The notes below the pieces were generated by a model, which saw only the letters and a program-made list of their open reading frames with translations, searched no databases and had not been told where the DNA came from. This document shows, one piece after another, positions 22,171 through 28,577 of a stretch of 64,000 bases of DNA (position 1 is the first letter of the stretch; each line of letters opens with the position of its first letter). Both the position numbers and the translations under genes were made by a program. Source of the DNA: Halorubrum aquaticum (GTDB lineage Archaea > Halobacteriota > Halobacteria > Halobacteriales > Haloferacaceae); contig NZ_FOPZ01000002.1 of the NCBI RefSeq assembly GCF_900113615.1, forward strand, positions 62,001 through 126,000, written 5' to 3'.

Positions 22171-23019
22171 TCACGCTTCGTCAGGCCGACCCCATAGACT
22201 CGCGACCGGCCCCGAAACGACGAGACTGACGAGTCCGAACGCGACGGTGATCGTGAGAACGCCCGGATCGCGGAAACTCGTCGTGGCGATGAGCAACGCG
22301 ATGGCCACGTTTCGCGCGGCGGTCGTCGTCGCGAGGACTTCCCGCGTGGACTTCTCGGGGCCACCGAGGGCGTACCCCAGTAGTAACGAACCGACGACGA
22401 CGACGACCGAAATAAATAGCGTCCCGGTACCGACCAACTGGCGCATTTCGCCGGCATAGAGGACCGTCAAGAGGACGACCAGGAGAACGAGCAGGTACGT
22501 CGAGAGGCGCTGGATCGGTGGATGGAGGCGTGTCGCAACGGGCTGATAGCGTGCCCTGACGCCGAGCCCACCGATCAGGGGGACCAACTGCGTCACGACG
22601 ACGATCCGGGCGATCCCGAGCGGGTCGGCGGCGACGTCGCCGGGCATGAGAAGGGCCACCGTGATCGGTATCGTCGCGACGGAGACGACGCCCAGAACGG
22701 CCATCAGACCGCTCGCGAACGCGACGTCACTTTTCGAGATCTCGGCCAGTTTCGGCCCGAAGGGCGCTCCCGGTGCCATGGCGATCAACAGGAGACCGAT
22801 GACGTGACCGGTCTCCATCGGAACCGCGAGGACGAACGCGAACGCCAGCAGCGGGACGAGTATGAGGTTCACCAACAGCGATTTCGCCATCAGCCGACGT
22901 CGCCCGATCGCTTCGAGGACCTCGGCGGTCGTCAGCGCCAGCCCCATGGAGAACATCGTCGCGAGCACGAAGACGACCGTGACGAGATCGATGACTGCGG
23001 TGGGCGTTATCGGTCCCAT
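22171..23019 (-). CDS. SBF (bile acid:Na+ symporter) family transporter
   Basis: A 282-residue polytopic protein with about nine hydrophobic segments, of the SBF/BASS superfamily. Signature-like stretches are the N-terminal FVLATMFSMGLALT, the conserved LLIAMAPGAPFGPKLAE and the second repeat ATTTAARNVAIALLI. Members move organic acids or, in the Acr3 branch, arsenite with Na+ or H+; the substrate here is not known. ATG at 23019 begins directly before the first membrane helix. It lies downstream of the cupin pair on the same strand, 228 bp away. Confidence 0.8.
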   Translation of the reverse strand: MGPITPTAVIDLVTVVFVLATMFSMGLALTTAEVLEAIGRRRLMAKSLLVNLILVPLLAFAFVLAVPMETGHVIGLLLIAMAPGAPFGPKLAEISKSDVAFASGLMAVLGVVSVATIPITVALLMPGDVAADPLGIARIVVVTQLVPLIGGLGVRARYQPVATRLHPPIQRLSTYLLVLLVVLLTVLYAGEMRQLVGTGTLFISVVVVVGSLLLGYALGGPEKSTREVLATTTAARNVAIALLIATTSFRDPGVLTITVAFGLVSLVVSGPVASLWGRPDEA

Positions 23020-23246
23020 TCGTCAGTGAAATCGCTTCGTGATTCGGAGAGAAAAGTGGCCCGTCTGTCGATCGTCACCGCCTTTCCATCGATGAACTAC
23101 GCGTTCGCACACGGCTGCTGGGACGTCCTATCTTCCGAACAGAAGATCGTCGGATCCCGAAGTCGCTCGTCCGGATCACCGTCGTCGTCGAGCGCCTTGA
23201 GGGCGCTACCGAGAGGGACAAAGGCCGTCCGCTCGCCGGCCTCCGG
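23020..23246. terminator. Gap after the cupin genes, with two small hairpins
   Basis: No gene is seen. AGCGCC-TTGAG-GGCGCT (23191-23207) and ATCTTC-CGAACA-GAAGAT (about 23131-23148) can form hairpins downstream of the cupin stop and upstream of the transporter. They might separate the transcripts, but archaeal terminators rarely need hairpins, so the assignment is weak. Confidence 0.3.
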
Positions 23247-23552
23247 CTACTCGTCGGACCGGGACGCCAGGACGACCAGGGCGGTGCTCTCCTCGACGGC
23301 ACGGGGGGCGATATCCCGGTCGCCGTCGAAGCGGGCCACGTCACCCGCCGACAGCTCGTGTGTCTCGTCGCCGAGTTCCAACTCGATCCTTCCCTCGACG
23401 AGATAGAAGACGATCTCGCGGTCGGGATGCGAGTGAGATGCCACTTCGTCACCCGCATCGAGTGTGAGTCTGATCGTCTTCGGTTCCGCGTCGGGGAAGA
23501 CGTTGGCGTGGGGCCGTCCGTCCAGCTCGTCGAGGGCGTGTATCGTCGTCAT
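23247..23552 (-). CDS. Single-domain cupin protein (1)
   Basis: A 101-residue cupin. The first cupin motif is recognisable as HSHPDREIVFYLVEGRIELELG (His, His, Glu pattern). The second motif is weaker (SAGDVARFDGDRDIAPRAVEE) and the usual final His is absent, so the metal site may be incomplete. Function unknown; small cupins bind metals or small acids. The ATG overlaps the stop of the upstream cupin gene (ATGA), so the two are coupled. It is the second gene of a pair lying downstream of nirK. Confidence 0.82.
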   Translation of the reverse strand: MTTIHALDELDGRPHANVFPDAEPKTIRLTLDAGDEVASHSHPDREIVFYLVEGRIELELGDETHELSAGDVARFDGDRDIAPRAVEESTALVVLASRSDE

Positions 23553-23929
23553 GGATCGGTGGGATCGAACTCGTCGGTTCGAAGTCCCCGGCGGACCGGT
23601 TCGTGCTCGGCGTCGGTCGGCGGCGGTGCGGTGACGAGCAGCGCCTCGAGCCGCGAATCGTCGTCGGCCTTGACACCGCGATCGGTATCCGCCTCGACGG
23701 TCACGACGTCTCCCGGTTCGACGCGGCGTTCCTCATCGCCGTCGCGGACGAGTCCGGTACCGGAACGAACGTCGATCACCACGTCACTGGACGGGGCGTG
23801 AACCGGGATGAACTGTCCCGGTTCGAAGTAGCCGCAGACGACCTTCATCCGGTCGCTCCGGAACGCCTCGACCGCCGAGAACTTCTCGTCGTCGTACGTC
23901 CGTTCCGCCTCGAGGTCGATGGCGGTCAT
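23549..23929 (-). CDS. Single-domain cupin protein (2)
   Basis: A 126-residue cupin-like protein: EPGQFIPVHAPSSDVVIDVRSG corresponds to the first cupin motif and VEPGDVVTVEADTDRGVKAD to the second. Only one His is kept, so metal binding is doubtful. One Cys (VVCGYF) lies in the first strand. It is translationally coupled to cupin 1. nirK ends 202 bp upstream on the same strand, so read-through is possible. Cupins recur near nirK-type genes, but their role there is unknown to me. Confidence 0.75.
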   Translation of the reverse strand: MTAIDLEAERTYDDEKFSAVEAFRSDRMKVVCGYFEPGQFIPVHAPSSDVVIDVRSGTGLVRDGDEERRVEPGDVVTVEADTDRGVKADDDSRLEALLVTAPPPTDAEHEPVRRGLRTDEFDPTDP

Positions 23930-23936
23930 ATTGACC

Positions 23937-23953
23937 CACCCGTTCGACGGGTG
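23937..23953. promoter_or_regulatory. 6-bp-stem inverted repeat just upstream of the cupin operon
   Basis: CACCCG-TTCGA-CGGGTG lies 8 bp before the cupin-2 ATG (minus strand). It is either a 5'-leader hairpin or an operator. Confidence 0.35.
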
Positions 23954-24131
23954 TCACGACAGTTCGATCGGACGGCGAGTCGCGTGACGACGACTGACGA
24001 TTCGATCGTTCGCTCTGGTTTAGGCTGACCAAAATCCATGTGTTTCGATCTGTAGCGAGGAGGCACAATAGGGTTGAGCCGAACACGTTCCCGTCGGATC
24101 GGCCCGATCGACGAACCGGAACCGTCGGCGT

Positions 24132-25235
24132 TCACTCACCGGAACTCGGGTCGTACACGTCCGGGTTCGGCTCGCCCTCGACGTCGACCACCGCGAGCGC
24201 ACCCCGGCGTCCCGCCCGCGAGAGCGCGTGGTCCACGACCTTGATCGGACCCGGGACCACGAGGTCCATCTCGCCGACCGTCGCCGTGCCCGGCGCGACC
24301 GGCGTGGTCTCGACGTACCGGGCCGGTGACGAGACGAGGTCGCCGTCGCGGTACAGTCGCGACCAGACGTTGCCGATCGGGTGCCACGAGCTGGACTGGT
24401 TCGGCCCGCCGTTGACGAAGAACACGCGGACGGTCTCGCCCACCTCGGCGCCTATCGGCCCGAGCCGGTCGTCGGTGAAGCCGTGGTGTTCGCCGTTGAA
24501 GACGACGTACGTCGGGTCCTCGTCCACCATCGCGCCCTGGTCGAAGGCGTGGTGACCCTTCTCGCCGAGGTCGCCCGTGGTGTACAGTTCGTGCTGGCCG
24601 AGGTAGATCTCGCGGTCCACCGCCGGCAGTCCCTCCTCGGGCTCGACGAGGATCGCGCCGAACATCCCGGCGCTGACGTGGTGGTCCATCGCGGGCACCG
24701 CGCAGTGATAGGTGAACAGGCCGGGGTACTCCGCGCGGAAGCTGAGCTCCGCCGCGTCGTCGCCGGGGACGAGCGTCGTGTCGACGGCCCCGCCGCCGGG
24801 TCCGTACACGGCGTGGAAGTCAACGTTGTGGATGTCGCTGTTGTCCTCGGCGGGCACCTCGAACCGGAGGTTCACGGTGTCGCCCCGGCGAACCCGGATC
24901 ATCGGTCCGGGGACCTGTCCCTCGAACGTCATGTATTTGAACGTGACGCCGGGTTCGATCTCCGCGACGAGCTCCTTCGTTCGGAGGGTGACGTCGTGTT
25001 CCCGCGGTTCGTCCCAGTCGACCGGTTCGGGGACATCCGTCGGGTCGGCCGCTATCCGGTCGACGTCGACGTCGCGTGCGGGGTCCAGTTCGGGTTCGGC
25101 CGCGACCTGCTCGGTAACGGCCTCCGGCGGCGGGGTCTCCGCGTTCACCGGTGCGCCGATACAGCCGGCGACCGCGCCGACCGCACCGATCCCGAGTGCC
25201 GCAACCATCTTCCGTCTGCTGAGGTCTCGTGACAT
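24132..25235 (-). CDS. nirK: Copper-containing nitrite reductase (NirK), exported
   Basis: A 367-residue NO-forming nitrite reductase, the key step of denitrification. The N-terminus has a Tat-like SRRKMV motif and a lipobox-like GAVAGC, so it is exported and probably lipid-anchored. Type 1 Cu ligands are His136, Cys178, His186 and Met191, with the short C-to-H loop of the AniA-like class. Type 2 ligands are His141, His177 and His285 (SSWHPIGN); Asp139 (NVDFH) is catalytic, and a second active-site His may come from FNGEHHG. An SD GGAGGAGGT (25246-25254) and a TATA-like tract (25270-25284) precede ATG 25235. Two cupins follow and a DtxR-type regulator lies upstream. Confidence 0.95.
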   Translation of the reverse strand: MSRDLSRRKMVAALGIGAVGAVAGCIGAPVNAETPPPEAVTEQVAAEPELDPARDVDVDRIAADPTDVPEPVDWDEPREHDVTLRTKELVAEIEPGVTFKYMTFEGQVPGPMIRVRRGDTVNLRFEVPAEDNSDIHNVDFHAVYGPGGGAVDTTLVPGDDAAELSFRAEYPGLFTYHCAVPAMDHHVSAGMFGAILVEPEEGLPAVDREIYLGQHELYTTGDLGEKGHHAFDQGAMVDEDPTYVVFNGEHHGFTDDRLGPIGAEVGETVRVFFVNGGPNQSSSWHPIGNVWSRLYRDGDLVSSPARYVETTPVAPGTATVGEMDLVVPGPIKVVDHALSRAGRRGALAVVDVEGEPNPDVYDPSSGE

Positions 25236-25269
25236 GATCTTCCCTACCTCCTCCGAGGTGCCCTGATGA

Positions 25270-25284
25270 CATATATGATATATA
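25270..25284 (-). promoter_or_regulatory. TATA-like tract of nirK
   Basis: On the minus strand the sequence reads approximately TATATATCATATATG, 35-49 nt upstream of the ATG. With the SD at 25246-25254 this indicates a leadered nirK mRNA starting near 25245-25255. Confidence 0.55.
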
Positions 25285-25319
25285 CTGTTCCCTAATATCG
25301 GGGCGAAAACGCCGCTCTA

Positions 25320-25333
25320 CCCTCATATGAGGG
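25320..25333. promoter_or_regulatory. 14-bp perfect palindrome upstream of nirK
   Basis: CCCTCATATGAGGG is perfectly self-complementary and lies about 40 bp upstream of the nirK TATA tract, within the 170-bp gap between nirK and the DtxR-type gene. It is the best candidate operator for control of nirK. Confidence 0.5.
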
Positions 25334-25405
25334 AGGTTAAGTACTCAAATCGATCCGATACGACGGAAACCGGTCGGAACCGTTCGGGAACGGCCCCGGC
25401 GGGAT

Positions 25406-25888
25406 TCAACACTCGAGTTCCGCGAACGGACACCGTTCGGCCCCGTTCGGTGGCGTCACGGAGCACGCGTTCGACGTCCCGTCTACGAGCACTCGCAGGC
25501 GCTCGATCGCCTCGTCCGGAAGGACGTATCCGATCCGGTAGCCCGCCTCGAGGGGCATGTCGAACCCCGTTCGACGGCGAAAGAACGTTCGGACGGCACA
25601 CTGGCGCGCTTCCAGTTCCAACGCGACTTCCCGCCCTCGATCGGTGAGGACGACGCCTTCCCGCTTCTCGTATCGGAGGAGTCCGTCGGCAGCGAGCCGC
25701 TCGAACATCTCCGTCACGCTCGACGGCGCGACGTCGAGACGATCGCTCACCTCTCCGGTCCGAACCCGCTCATCGCGACCGGAGCCGACCCGTCCGACGA
25801 CGACGAGATACAGTCCCTCGTTCCGATCGACGCAGGCGGTCGGCCGCACGCAGCCGCAGACGTCCGCCCGCGAGTGGTCGATGGCCAT
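25406..25888 (-). CDS. DtxR/MntR-type metal-dependent regulator with Cys-rich ends
   Basis: A 160-residue regulator. Residues 25-85 hold a winged helix of DtxR type (TGEVSDRLDVAPSSVTEMFERLAADGLLRYEKREGVVLTDRG), followed by a dimerisation region containing ARQCAVRTFF. Members repress metal uptake when loaded with Fe or Mn. Unusually, three Cys (11, 13, 19) precede the helix-turn-helix and three more sit in the tail (NACS, RCPF, LEC), suggesting an extra metal or redox site. ATG at 25888 abuts the P-type ATPase remnant. The gene is upstream of nirK in the same orientation. Confidence 0.85.
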   Translation of the reverse strand: MAIDHSRADVCGCVRPTACVDRNEGLYLVVVGRVGSGRDERVRTGEVSDRLDVAPSSVTEMFERLAADGLLRYEKREGVVLTDRGREVALELEARQCAVRTFFRRRTGFDMPLEAGYRIGYVLPDEAIERLRVLVDGTSNACSVTPPNGAERCPFAELEC

Positions 25889-26294
25889 TGCCGTACGTTC
25901 GACACGCTCCGGGCATGAGCGTCCGTCCGAACATGTTCTCGCCCGTCGTCGTCGGTCGGCGTCCCGTCTCGAAACCCGAGGGTGTACCCGTAGCCGGAGA
26001 GGGCTTCCGGGAGTTCCTTCCGTTCGATCTCCTCCGGGTCGTAGACGACTCGGGCGGTCTCCGTGCCGTAGTTCGCTTCCACGGCGCGGATCCCCGCCCG
26101 ATCGTCGCCGTGTAGGGCGAGGAACGACTCACAGGTCGTACAGTACATCCCGTCTCGACGGCATCCGCGACGTCCGCGTCGTCGAGGCGACGGGTCACCT
26201 CCAGGCAGCCGCGACAGCAGAACTCGCCGTCGACGTCGGCCGCCGTGACGGGTGGGTTCGAAGTCGGAAGGCCACAGAGACGGCAGTCGCTCAT
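25889..26294 (-). pseudogene. Frameshifted N-terminal remnant of a heavy-metal P-type ATPase
   Basis: Translation from 26294 gives the zinc-finger-like head of haloarchaeal copper-type ATPases (MSDCRLCGLPTSNPPV, then GEFCCRGCLEV). At about 26150 the frame is lost; the next frame gives the metal-binding domain (MYCTTCESFLALHG, then VVYDPEEIERKELPEALSGYGY). One extra G in the ACGGGATG run would fuse the two frames as ETG-MYC. After about 130 residues homology stops; the membrane and phosphorylation domains are absent and the DtxR gene begins at 25888. This is a decayed gene or a deletion joint. A sequencing error could explain the frameshift but not the missing 600 or so residues. Confidence 0.72.
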
Positions 26295-26439
26295 CGACCG
26301 TGATCGGTCGGCGACCCGGGAGTCCCTATCCGCGAACGTGTTCGGGACGGGGCGTCACATCCCGTCGGATCGGGTCCGTCATCGTCTCCACACGGGTCGA
26401 CGCGGCGTTCGTCTCCGTCCGGGCAGGACGGCCACGGCC

Positions 26440-26462
26440 GGGGGAAGGGGAGGGAGAAGGGG
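26440..26462 (+). other. G-quadruplex-type purine tract before the NnrS-like gene
   Basis: Four G-runs (5, 4, 3 and 4 G) are separated by AA, A and AGAA, giving a strand that fits the G3+N1-7 pattern, about 48 bp before the ATG at 26511. The gap 26295-26510 holds nothing else recognisable apart from this. Confidence 0.4.
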
Positions 26463-26510
26463 AACATCTTCGGTGGTATCGTCAGGTGTCCGGAGACCGT
26501 ACCCGATCCC

Positions 26511-27869
26511 ATGGGAGCCATCCCGGGTACCATCGAGACGGACCGACAGCCCCCCATGACGGTCCCGTTACGTCACTTCCTCGTCGGACTCGTCTTTCTG
26601 GTCGCGGGGATCGGAGTCGGGATCGGCTTACACCTGAACGTCGTGCCGGGGCTGGGACGGCTCGCTCACGTCCATCTCCTGTTGGCCGGGTGGATCTGTC
26701 TCACGATCATGGGGGCGATGACGCAGTTCGTGCCCGTCTGGTCGGGCGTGACCCTCCACTCGCGGCGTCTCGCGAACGTACAGTTGGGGCTGGTCGTCGC
26801 CGGTCTCTCCGGGTTCGTCGTCGCGTTTCTCCTGGTCGAGACGACGTGGCTGATCCCGTTCGCGGCGCTCATGCTCGTCGGCTTCTGGGTCTTCGCGTAC
26901 AACATCGTCCGAACGCTCGGCACGGTCGATGAGTACGACGTCACCGAACGCCACTTCCTCGGCGCGCTCGGCTTCTTCCTCGCGTTGACCGTTCTCGGCG
27001 TCCTCCTCGCGATCGACTTCACGGTTCCGACGTTCTCGCGGGTCGGCGTCGGTCGGTCCGGGGTAGTGGGCGCCCACGCGACCCTCGCGGTCTTCGGTGC
27101 CGTTCTCACGACGGTGTACGGGGCGCTGTATCAGCTCGGAACGATGTTCACGCAGACGGAACTACACGGGATCGACCACCGGCTTCGGGCCGTCGAGGAG
27201 GTCGCACATCCCGTCGGCGTGGTCGTCCTCGCCGCCGGTCGGCTCGCGGCCAACGCTCCCGCCGCGCGGGTCGGCGGCCTGTTGGTCCTGCTCGCCGCGT
27301 CGGCGATCTGTCTCGTTCTGGCACGCAAACTGTACGAGATGCGGGTCGAACGGACTCCGATGCACACGCGATACGTCGTGGCGGTGGGGGCACTCGCGCT
27401 GTGGGTCGCCGTCTCAGCGCCCGCATGGACGTCCGACCCGTTGACGCGTGAGCATCTGCTCGGGGGGGCGAACGCCGGCCACCTGATGTTGTTGGGAGCG
27501 ATCGGGTTCGTCGTCGTAGGGACGCTCTATCACGTCATCCCCTTCGTCGTCTGGGTCAACCGGTACAGCGATCTGTTGGGATTGGAGGACGTCCCGATGA
27601 TCGACGACCTCTACGACGACCGGATCGCCGCGATCGACGGGCTGCTCCTCGGGGGCGGAAGCGCGCTGATCGTGGGCGCGAACCTGTCGTCGGTCGCCGG
27701 AGTCCCGGTGCTCCTCGGCGGCCTGCTGGTGGGCGTCGGCGTCGTGGCGTTCGTGTCCAACGTGGTCCTCGTGTTGGTCCGTCACAGCCCCCACCCGATC
27801 GACCGGATCGTCCTGGGGGCGTTCTCGCCGCGTCGAGCGCGCGGTCCCGATGGGGCGGTCGAGGAGTAG
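26511..27869 (+). CDS. Polytopic membrane protein, haem-copper-oxidase subunit I-like / NnrS-like
   Basis: A 452-residue protein with about twelve hydrophobic segments. Several membrane His (HVHLLLAGW, AHATLAVFG, NAGHLMLLG, LYHVIPF) sit in patterns reminiscent of cytochrome oxidase subunit I and of NnrS proteins of denitrifiers. The full catalytic His set is not evident, so I call it related rather than an oxidase. The position beside nirK suggests a role in NO or nitrite metabolism or copper/haem handling. Starts at 26511 and 26556 (MTVPLRHFLV) are both possible; the latter gives a more usual N-terminus. It is divergent from the ATPase remnant. Confidence 0.72.
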   Translation: MGAIPGTIETDRQPPMTVPLRHFLVGLVFLVAGIGVGIGLHLNVVPGLGRLAHVHLLLAGWICLTIMGAMTQFVPVWSGVTLHSRRLANVQLGLVVAGLSGFVVAFLLVETTWLIPFAALMLVGFWVFAYNIVRTLGTVDEYDVTERHFLGALGFFLALTVLGVLLAIDFTVPTFSRVGVGRSGVVGAHATLAVFGAVLTTVYGALYQLGTMFTQTELHGIDHRLRAVEEVAHPVGVVVLAAGRLAANAPAARVGGLLVLLAASAICLVLARKLYEMRVERTPMHTRYVVAVGALALWVAVSAPAWTSDPLTREHLLGGANAGHLMLLGAIGFVVVGTLYHVIPFVVWVNRYSDLLGLEDVPMIDDLYDDRIAAIDGLLLGGGSALIVGANLSSVAGVPVLLGGLLVGVGVVAFVSNVVLVLVRHSPHPIDRIVLGAFSPRRARGPDGAVEE

Positions 27870-27941
27870 GACGAGTCGAGACGCGCGGGATCGAACATGT
27901 ACGGGAACAGGAGTACCCTTCCCGATCTCGAACGGACGCGT

Positions 27942-28577
27942 ATGCCCAGCTTTCCGTCTCCGTTCGGCTCCGACGACGGCGATCTGTTCGACGGATACGA
28001 CGAGTTCGTGTCGGACCACGTCCCGAGACCGGGCGAGTTCCTCGAGCCTCACGACCTGCTCACCGGGGAGGACCACGTCGCGTTTCACCGCCTCACTCGC
28101 GACTGCTTCGAGGACCGGAAGGTGTACGACATGACGTTCAACTACAACCTCGCCCGGCTGAACCTCGACACCCGCCACACGGGCGCCGGCTACCGCTACG
28201 CCGTCGAACGTGGCGACGCCGCCGACGCTGACACCGACGCCGTCGAAGCGGTGGACGCCGACCGCGTGCTCCGCGCGGAGTTCACGCCGACGACCCCGTT
28301 CTGTCCGCAGACCCACACGCTGACGATCGGGTCGTTCCGGGCGTGGAACGGGCTCTCGGACCGACACGAGTACGACCTCGTCCGCGTCCGTGCGGCGTCC
28401 ATGCACCATCAGAGCGAGGCGATCAACGAGCAGCTCGCTGAGCTCGAGCGGACGTATCTCGAGACCGGAGACGTGACCGCCGTTCCCGAGGGAGGGAGCG
28501 AGATCGGCTCGAACCCCATGGAACGGTCGATGGAGAACGAGGCCCCGAGTCGTGGATCGACCGACGCCCCGTTCTGA
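27942..28577 (+). CDS. Small protein with a DUF59-like core, denitrification neighbourhood
   Basis: A 211-residue acidic protein, or 226 residues if the ATG at 27897 is used. The central part (VLRAEFTPTTPFCPQTHTLTIGSF) resembles the Cys-containing strand-turn of DUF59/PaaD-like Fe-S-assembly proteins; MHHQSEAINEQLAELE follows. N- and C-terminal parts are low complexity and Asp/Glu/Ser-rich. No membrane segment. It follows the NnrS-like gene by 72 bp on the same strand, so co-expression is likely. A role in metal-centre maturation for the nirK block is an inference only. Confidence 0.6.
   Translation: MPSFPSPFGSDDGDLFDGYDEFVSDHVPRPGEFLEPHDLLTGEDHVAFHRLTRDCFEDRKVYDMTFNYNLARLNLDTRHTGAGYRYAVERGDAADADTDAVEAVDADRVLRAEFTPTTPFCPQTHTLTIGSFRAWNGLSDRHEYDLVRVRAASMHHQSEAINEQLAELERTYLETGDVTAVPEGGSEIGSNPMERSMENEAPSRGSTDAPF

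Follow-up and report, generated by a model that had tools for sequence, protein, structure and literature searches.

A probable accessory module for nitrite and nitric oxide respiration beside nirK in Halorubrum aquaticum, with a heme-copper oxidase-like protein and a DUF59-like partner as its core

We analysed a stretch of 64,000 nucleotides from the haloarchaeon Halorubrum aquaticum (contig NZ_FOPZ01000002.1, positions 62,001 to 126,000, henceforth the window), in which a preliminary description had placed a denitrification-linked accessory block around nirK, the gene of the copper nitrite reductase. All the genes named in that description are present (Table 1), among them a complete exported NirK, two coupled cupins (cupA and cupB), a Cys-rich DtxR-type regulator and the remnant of a P-type ATPase. 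Beside these lie the gene of a polytopic protein with the predicted fold of heme-copper oxidase subunit I (COX1L) and that of a small protein resembling the DUF59/MIP18 family (DUF59-like), the start of which is set at 27942 by conserved alignments and not at 27897, a position inside the promoter box. NirK passes the curated TIGR02376 cutoff (364.8 vs 296.3 bits), has a Tat/lipobox export signal, and its T1/T2 copper-ligand motifs can be read directly (HNVDFHA, YHCAVP, DHHVSAGM, SSWHPIG and VDHALSRA). Several Halorubrum genomes carry a second nirK (L152:9402-10529, ~63% identical), often near an intact Cu-ATPase, and in congeners nirK is adjoined by the gene of a Tat-exported laccase-like multicopper oxidase (L139:7377-9212) that is absent from the window block.

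The distribution of these genes was followed over 293 haloarchaeal genomes as raw counts that ignore kinship; genomes were taken as nirK-positive if they had a TIGR02376 match with an E value of 1e-50 or better (148 genomes, compared with 143 above the curated cutoff). COX1L and the DUF59-like gene are inherited together: both occur in 169 genomes and neither in 115, with single occurrences amounting to 4 and 5 (Fisher P 1.6e-69, kinship ignored). They lie less than 10 kb apart in 99 of the 131 genomes with both located (76%); all proximity figures given here refer to such subsets, i.e. genomes in which both genes of a pair could be located. COX1L is present in 134 of the 148 nirK-positive genomes. 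When the genomes are divided by nirK and the quinol nitric oxide (NO) reductase (qNor), it is found in 101/106 of those with both, 33/42 with nirK alone, 27/47 with qNor alone and 12/98 with neither. Both cupins show the same phyletic pattern as COX1L: cupA occurs in 165 of the 293 genomes (10 kb or less from COX1L in 66/122, 3 kb or less in 54/122) and cupB in 97, of which 95 also have COX1L. Co-occurrence P values across the gene pairs range from 1e-17 to 1e-69, kinship again being ignored. The best 80 COX1L loci in the genome collection, retrieved with strict patterns, were all haloarchaeal.

The flanking genes prove to be mostly away from nirK in one sense, since COX1L, the DUF59-like gene and cupB are each separated from it by more than 10 kb in about two thirds of the genomes that have both. 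Even so, the proportions within 10 kb (COX1L-nirK 35%, DUF59-nirK 33%, cupB-nirK 27%, and 31% for cupB-COX1L) compare with a chance expectation of ~0.6%, and where nirK is elsewhere the genes still keep together. Recurrence of the cupins and the DUF59-like gene near nirK was also confirmed: among 100 nirK loci the DUF59-like gene is a neighbour in 36, cupA in 32, COX1L in 31 and cupB in 18, and among the 80 loci outside the genus in 29, 24, 24 and 9, respectively. A neighbourhood assembled by chance beside nirK would fit the SBF transporter and an MMSDH-type aldehyde dehydrogenase, which neither recur nor carry the box described below. For COX1L, the DUF59-like gene, both cupins, the DtxR-type regulator and the ATPase it is refuted by proximity, co-occurrence and conserved shared boxes, and as an account of the block we find it scarcely credible. 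What has to be given up is the idea of nirK as the centre: the natural core is the COX1L/DUF59-like pair, a link that nirK-centred counting at the order level would by itself have missed.

The promoters agree with neighbourhoods and phyletic profiles in marking a denitrification-linked accessory block with uncharacterised partners. The denitrification motif published for Haloferax mediterranei, CGAAYATDKTYG (PMC10062603, PMC11218638), has 11 near matches in the window, both strands counted, against 1.9 expected; three of the sites are in the block. In orthologous promoters the boxes stand at fixed positions, and with at most one mismatch they were found upstream of COX1L in 71 of 96 cases (70 within a single 20-nt bin), of the DUF59-like gene in 53/78, of nirK in 53/112, of cupB in 24/32, of the ATPase in 14/17 and of the DtxR-type gene in 11/20, over a background of 6–10%. 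After dereplication these counts become 59/75, 49/71, 44/100, 20/27, 12/15 and 10/18, and the signal stands against 40 permuted motifs used as control (means 0.1–1.9; 0.6 for COX1L). Halorubrum promoters drift elsewhere and keep the boxes. By this conserved fixed box COX1L, cupB, the ATPase and the DUF59-like and DtxR-type genes are candidate members of the CGAAYATDKTYG regulon. The usual box is not in the nirK promoter of the window; in its place Halorubrum nirK promoters share a CCC-N-CATATG-N-GGG palindrome, CCCNCATATGNGGG, and a conserved GAACAGTATATAT element. In cupB promoters a TTAGGN4CCTAA site accompanies the denitrification box in 12/32 cases from several genera (background 0.8%), and it occurs at most once in promoters of the other genes. 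This site resembles the DtxR/IdeR operator, and because of it the cupins are read as iron-responsive, predicted small metal-binding proteins.

The nearest described system is the nir-nor island of H. mediterranei, a NarO-type regulon with the same box, most genes of which are induced (PMC11218638); that species is reported to have no narO gene (PMC10062603). The published distance from box to start codon is 66–79 nt there and ~40–60 nt here, the Nor, halocyanin and DUF2249 genes of the island are missing from the window block, and nirK in the window has a different palindrome. The genes of the block would be expected to be induced together under declining oxygen, once nitrite or NO is present.

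Table 1. Genes and promoter elements of the nirK block (positions are those of the window).
Feature	Position	Strand	Evidence or remark
SBF transporter	22171-23019	-	Downstream of cupins
cupA, single-domain small cupin, gene 2 of two-cupin operon	23247..23552	-	Cupin_2 44.7 bits
cupB, single-domain small cupin	23549..23929	-	Cupin_2 30.5 bits; 4-nt overlap with cupA
DtxR/IdeR-type palindrome 5' of cupB, TTTGGTCAGCCTAA, consensus TTAGGN4CCTAA	24020..24033 (± few bases; ~24012-24041)	-	Promoter comparison
Denitrification-type box 5' of cupB, GGAACGTGTTCG, 2 mismatches	24080..24091	-	Aligned position kept in Halorubrum
nirK, exported copper nitrite reductase	24132..25235	-	TIGR02376 364.8 bits and Cu-ligand motifs
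Palindrome CCCTCATATGAGGG in nirK promoter, replacing the usual box	25323..25336	.	Kept in Halorubrum nirK promoters
Cys-rich DtxR-type winged-helix regulator, N-terminal CGCxRPTxC cluster	25406..25888	-	Fe_dep_repress 42.9 bits
Denitrification-type box of DtxR-type gene, AGAACATGTTCG	25928..25939	-	Promoter comparison
Cu-type P-type ATPase, frameshifted N-terminal stub, ~168/868 residues, internal deletion	25948..26294	-	tblastn with intact L145 homologue
Denitrification-type box of ATPase stub, CGAACACGTTCG	26333..26344	-	Promoter comparison
Denitrification-type box of COX1L, GGAACATCTTCG, 2 mismatches, conserved position	26461..26472	+	Promoter comparison
COX1L, 12 transmembrane helices (TM), predicted heme-copper oxidase subunit I fold, without TM7 His pair and TM10 His-x-His	26511..27869	+	AlphaFold2 model, His columns
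Denitrification-type box of DUF59-like gene, CGAACATGTACG	27892..27903	+	Promoter comparison
DUF59/MIP18-like small protein, invariant TPTTxFCPQ (Cys121 of model)	27942..28577	+	AlphaFold2 model, PDB matches, invariant Cys

The high-confidence AlphaFold2 model of COX1L (pLDDT 91.3) has the 12-TM subunit I fold of the heme-copper oxidase superfamily and superposes on CcoN of the cbb3 oxidase with Z 38.6 over 394 residues and on cNorB with Z 35.4 (overall Z 34–38.6 over ~390 residues, at 16–18% identity). The COX1 family PF00115 is matched by 24 of 29 COX1L members (best E 1.2e-12). NnrS (PF05940) resembles COX1L in being polytopic and linked to NO and denitrification but differs from it in sequence, being matched by 2/29 members with a best E of 0.04, and was rejected as its identity; the label "NnrS-like" of the preliminary description finds no sequence support. 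An alignment profile of COX1L retrieved no relatives among PDB sequences, and hhalign comparisons with haloarchaeal oxidases and NO reductases were not significant, with TM2 of COX1L aligned to the TM10 motif of the oxidases.

It is in the metal ligands that COX1L departs from CcoN and cNorB. Among 29 diverse members the only invariant His are 44 (TM2), 178 (TM6), 330 (TM10) and 414, with His 313 (TM10) in 19, and neither the TM7 His pair (CuB/FeB) nor the TM10 His-x-His occurs in any aligned member. Catalytic heme-copper reductases of oxygen and NO need both motifs. Because these ligands of the binuclear site are missing, COX1L is, judging from the alignment, unlikely to work as a terminal oxidase or as an NO reductase of the conventional kind.

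In plasmid records with annotation COX1L appears as a hypothetical protein. H. mediterranei has a 440-aa COX-domain protein near nirK, HFX_2180, which has been detected in the membrane proteome under denitrifying conditions and proposed as an electron donor or oxygen scavenger (PMC7754194), and a hypothetical protein of like description, E6P09_RS00790, is among the genes with the box in their promoter (PMC10062603). From the descriptions we infer that both tags denote one gene, very probably the orthologue of COX1L, which in Haloferax lies 3–4 kb from nirK; a literature search on these tags returned no further paper. COX1L might then be a quinol-to-halocyanin electron-transfer or oxygen-scavenging membrane protein feeding NirK or Nor, as the published suggestion and proteomic enrichment would have it (PMC7754194), and the invariant His residues of TM2 and TM6, like the halocyanins of some neighbourhoods, are in keeping with this. 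We consider it possible, if not favoured: oxygen scavenging requires the binuclear site that COX1L does not have, the position equivalent to the TM10 heme ligand is His in 19/29 members only, and the near-obligate soluble DUF59-like partner is left unexplained.

The model of that partner (AlphaFold2, pLDDT 81.3) has its best PDB matches in CIAO2B (Z 8.3, borderline), FAM96A and DUF59 structures (Z 8.3 and below). It resembles DUF59, MIP18, SufT and CIAO2 (PF01883) in its predicted alpha-beta topology and in an invariant Cys in the T-P-T-T-x-F-C-P-Q loop, the Cys of F-C-P-Q being kept in 36/36 members. It differs in its greater length, disordered N- and C-terminal tails and extra invariant His, Arg and Asp residues, and in having no significant Pfam match (PF01883 was hit by 1/36 members, E 0.062); a profile search of PDB sequences with its alignment likewise found no relatives. 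The assignment comes from the fold and one invariant Cys, and homology to DUF59/MIP18 is likely but not proven.

Outside the window, the genome (a draft of 40 contigs) encodes NosZ (L241:1492-3630; TIGR04244 699.7 bits, cutoff 625). The earlier remark that nitrate, NO and N2O reductases are lacking holds for the block itself but not, genome-wide, for the N2O reductase, and because NosZ is present the proposal of a nitrite-only module is wrong at the genome level. Neither NarG nor qNor was found in this 40-contig draft, the sole PF00384 molybdopterin oxidoreductase being formate dehydrogenase alpha, and the COX1 cutoff is exceeded only by oxidases of the aa3 and ba3 types. With the caveat of its draft state, the genome combines NirK and NosZ but has neither NarG nor any recognised NO reductase, which raises the question of the fate of NO; qNor is also absent from 42 of the 148 nirK-positive genomes sampled. 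COX1L could in such genomes take the place of NorB, as an NO reductase of unorthodox type or another enzyme that consumes NO. Its closeness to the cNorB fold, its presence in most nirK-positive genomes lacking qNor and the lack here of both qNor and any extra COX1-family protein above the cutoff speak for this. We nevertheless hold it to be quite unlikely: the absent TM7 and TM10 motifs are needed by all characterised heme-copper reductases, the draft may simply lack the contig with a conventional NO reductase, and COX1L accompanies qNor in nearly all genomes with nirK and qNor, so that it is no simple replacement for an NO reductase.

Copper delivery to NirK, also raised in the preliminary description, is unsupported in this genome because the Cu-ATPase is a stub, which tblastn aligned to residues 2–56 and 100–168 of the intact 868-aa protein of a congener, in two frames and with nothing beyond; intact P-type ATPases are encoded elsewhere in the genome, at only 50–53% identity. 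More broadly, the Cu-type P-type ATPase, copper-binding proteins and COX1L might form a module supplying copper to NirK and NosZ, an idea that gains from the intact Cu-type P-type ATPases near nirK in congeners, which bear the same denitrification box, and from the laccase-like oxidase adjoining nirK there. Against it stand the stub and the lack of the laccase in this block, an ATPase next to nirK in just 4 of the 80 loci from other genera compared with a widespread COX1L/DUF59-like pair, and a cupin promoter box of the iron type and not the copper type; such a module appears unlikely to us. The regulator has the winged-helix DNA-binding domain PF01325 (42.9 bits vs a cutoff of 26) and scores below the cutoff for the C-terminal metal-binding and dimerisation domain PF02742 (13.2 vs 27 bits). 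Its Cys cluster CGCxRPTxC is kept in the nirK-linked Halorubrum copies, and it may be a metal or NO sensor.

The reading we prefer, with a probability of about 0.6, is that of an accessory module for nitrite and NO respiration in haloarchaea, lying here beside nirK. Its core would be the co-inherited pair of COX1L, without binuclear-site histidines, and the soluble DUF59-like protein with its one invariant Cys, and the small-cupin operon, the DtxR-type regulator and, in relatives, the Cu P-type ATPase would be attached to the same regulon. This reading is based on co-occurrence, proximity and the promoter box that the genes share, together with the predicted fold and absent ligands of COX1L. 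At the level of the module the support is good, whereas for the biochemical roles we can offer a best guess. COX1L, as a putative b-heme or metal-binding membrane protein, would handle NO or feed electrons near the NirK/Nor chain and is predicted to reduce neither O2 nor NO itself, and the DUF59-like protein would act in the insertion or repair of metal centres (Fe-S or heme) under NO stress. Several points weigh against this proposal. COX1L is present in 39 genomes without nirK, 12 of which also lack qNor, so its role cannot be specific to NirK; the COX1L and cupB boxes of the window have two mismatches each; nirK in the Halorubrum clade has another palindrome in its promoter; and the DUF59-like protein is not recognised by Pfam and reaches a structural Z that is borderline only.

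More speculatively, COX1L and the DUF59-like protein may constitute an undescribed two-component NO-handling system, in which a stripped oxidase scaffold works with a DUF59-type metal-centre factor and by which genomes with NirK and NosZ and no recognised NO reductase tolerate or convert NO, though we think this rather improbable. COX1L as a candidate accessory protein and the promoter motif were already known. New are the DUF59-like protein as a near-obligate partner, the association with NO metabolism across the order, the conserved boxes of the accessory genes and the absence of the catalytic ligands; the cited H. mediterranei papers make no mention of the DUF59-like partner, the cupins, the missing ligands or the order-wide distribution. 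The pair closely follows NO metabolism; it was found in more than half of the sampled haloarchaeal genomes and, where annotation was checked, is listed as hypothetical. It offers defined gene targets with a shared promoter box, in the genetically tractable Haloferax, for studying NO handling in haloarchaea and the supply or protection of the metal centres needed for denitrification.

Among the remaining genes, the SBF transporter has no box and none of the shared features, occurs in just two of the loci fetched and is probably a bystander. Together with the MMSDH-type aldehyde dehydrogenase and a ThiS protein, it was rejected as a member of the module, given the lack of recurrence and of a box. 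In several loci, from Halorubrum and elsewhere, an unusual 574-aa heme-copper oxidase (L145:13040-14758) is encoded close to nirK and to an intact Cu P-type ATPase; it was not found in the genome of H. aquaticum itself.

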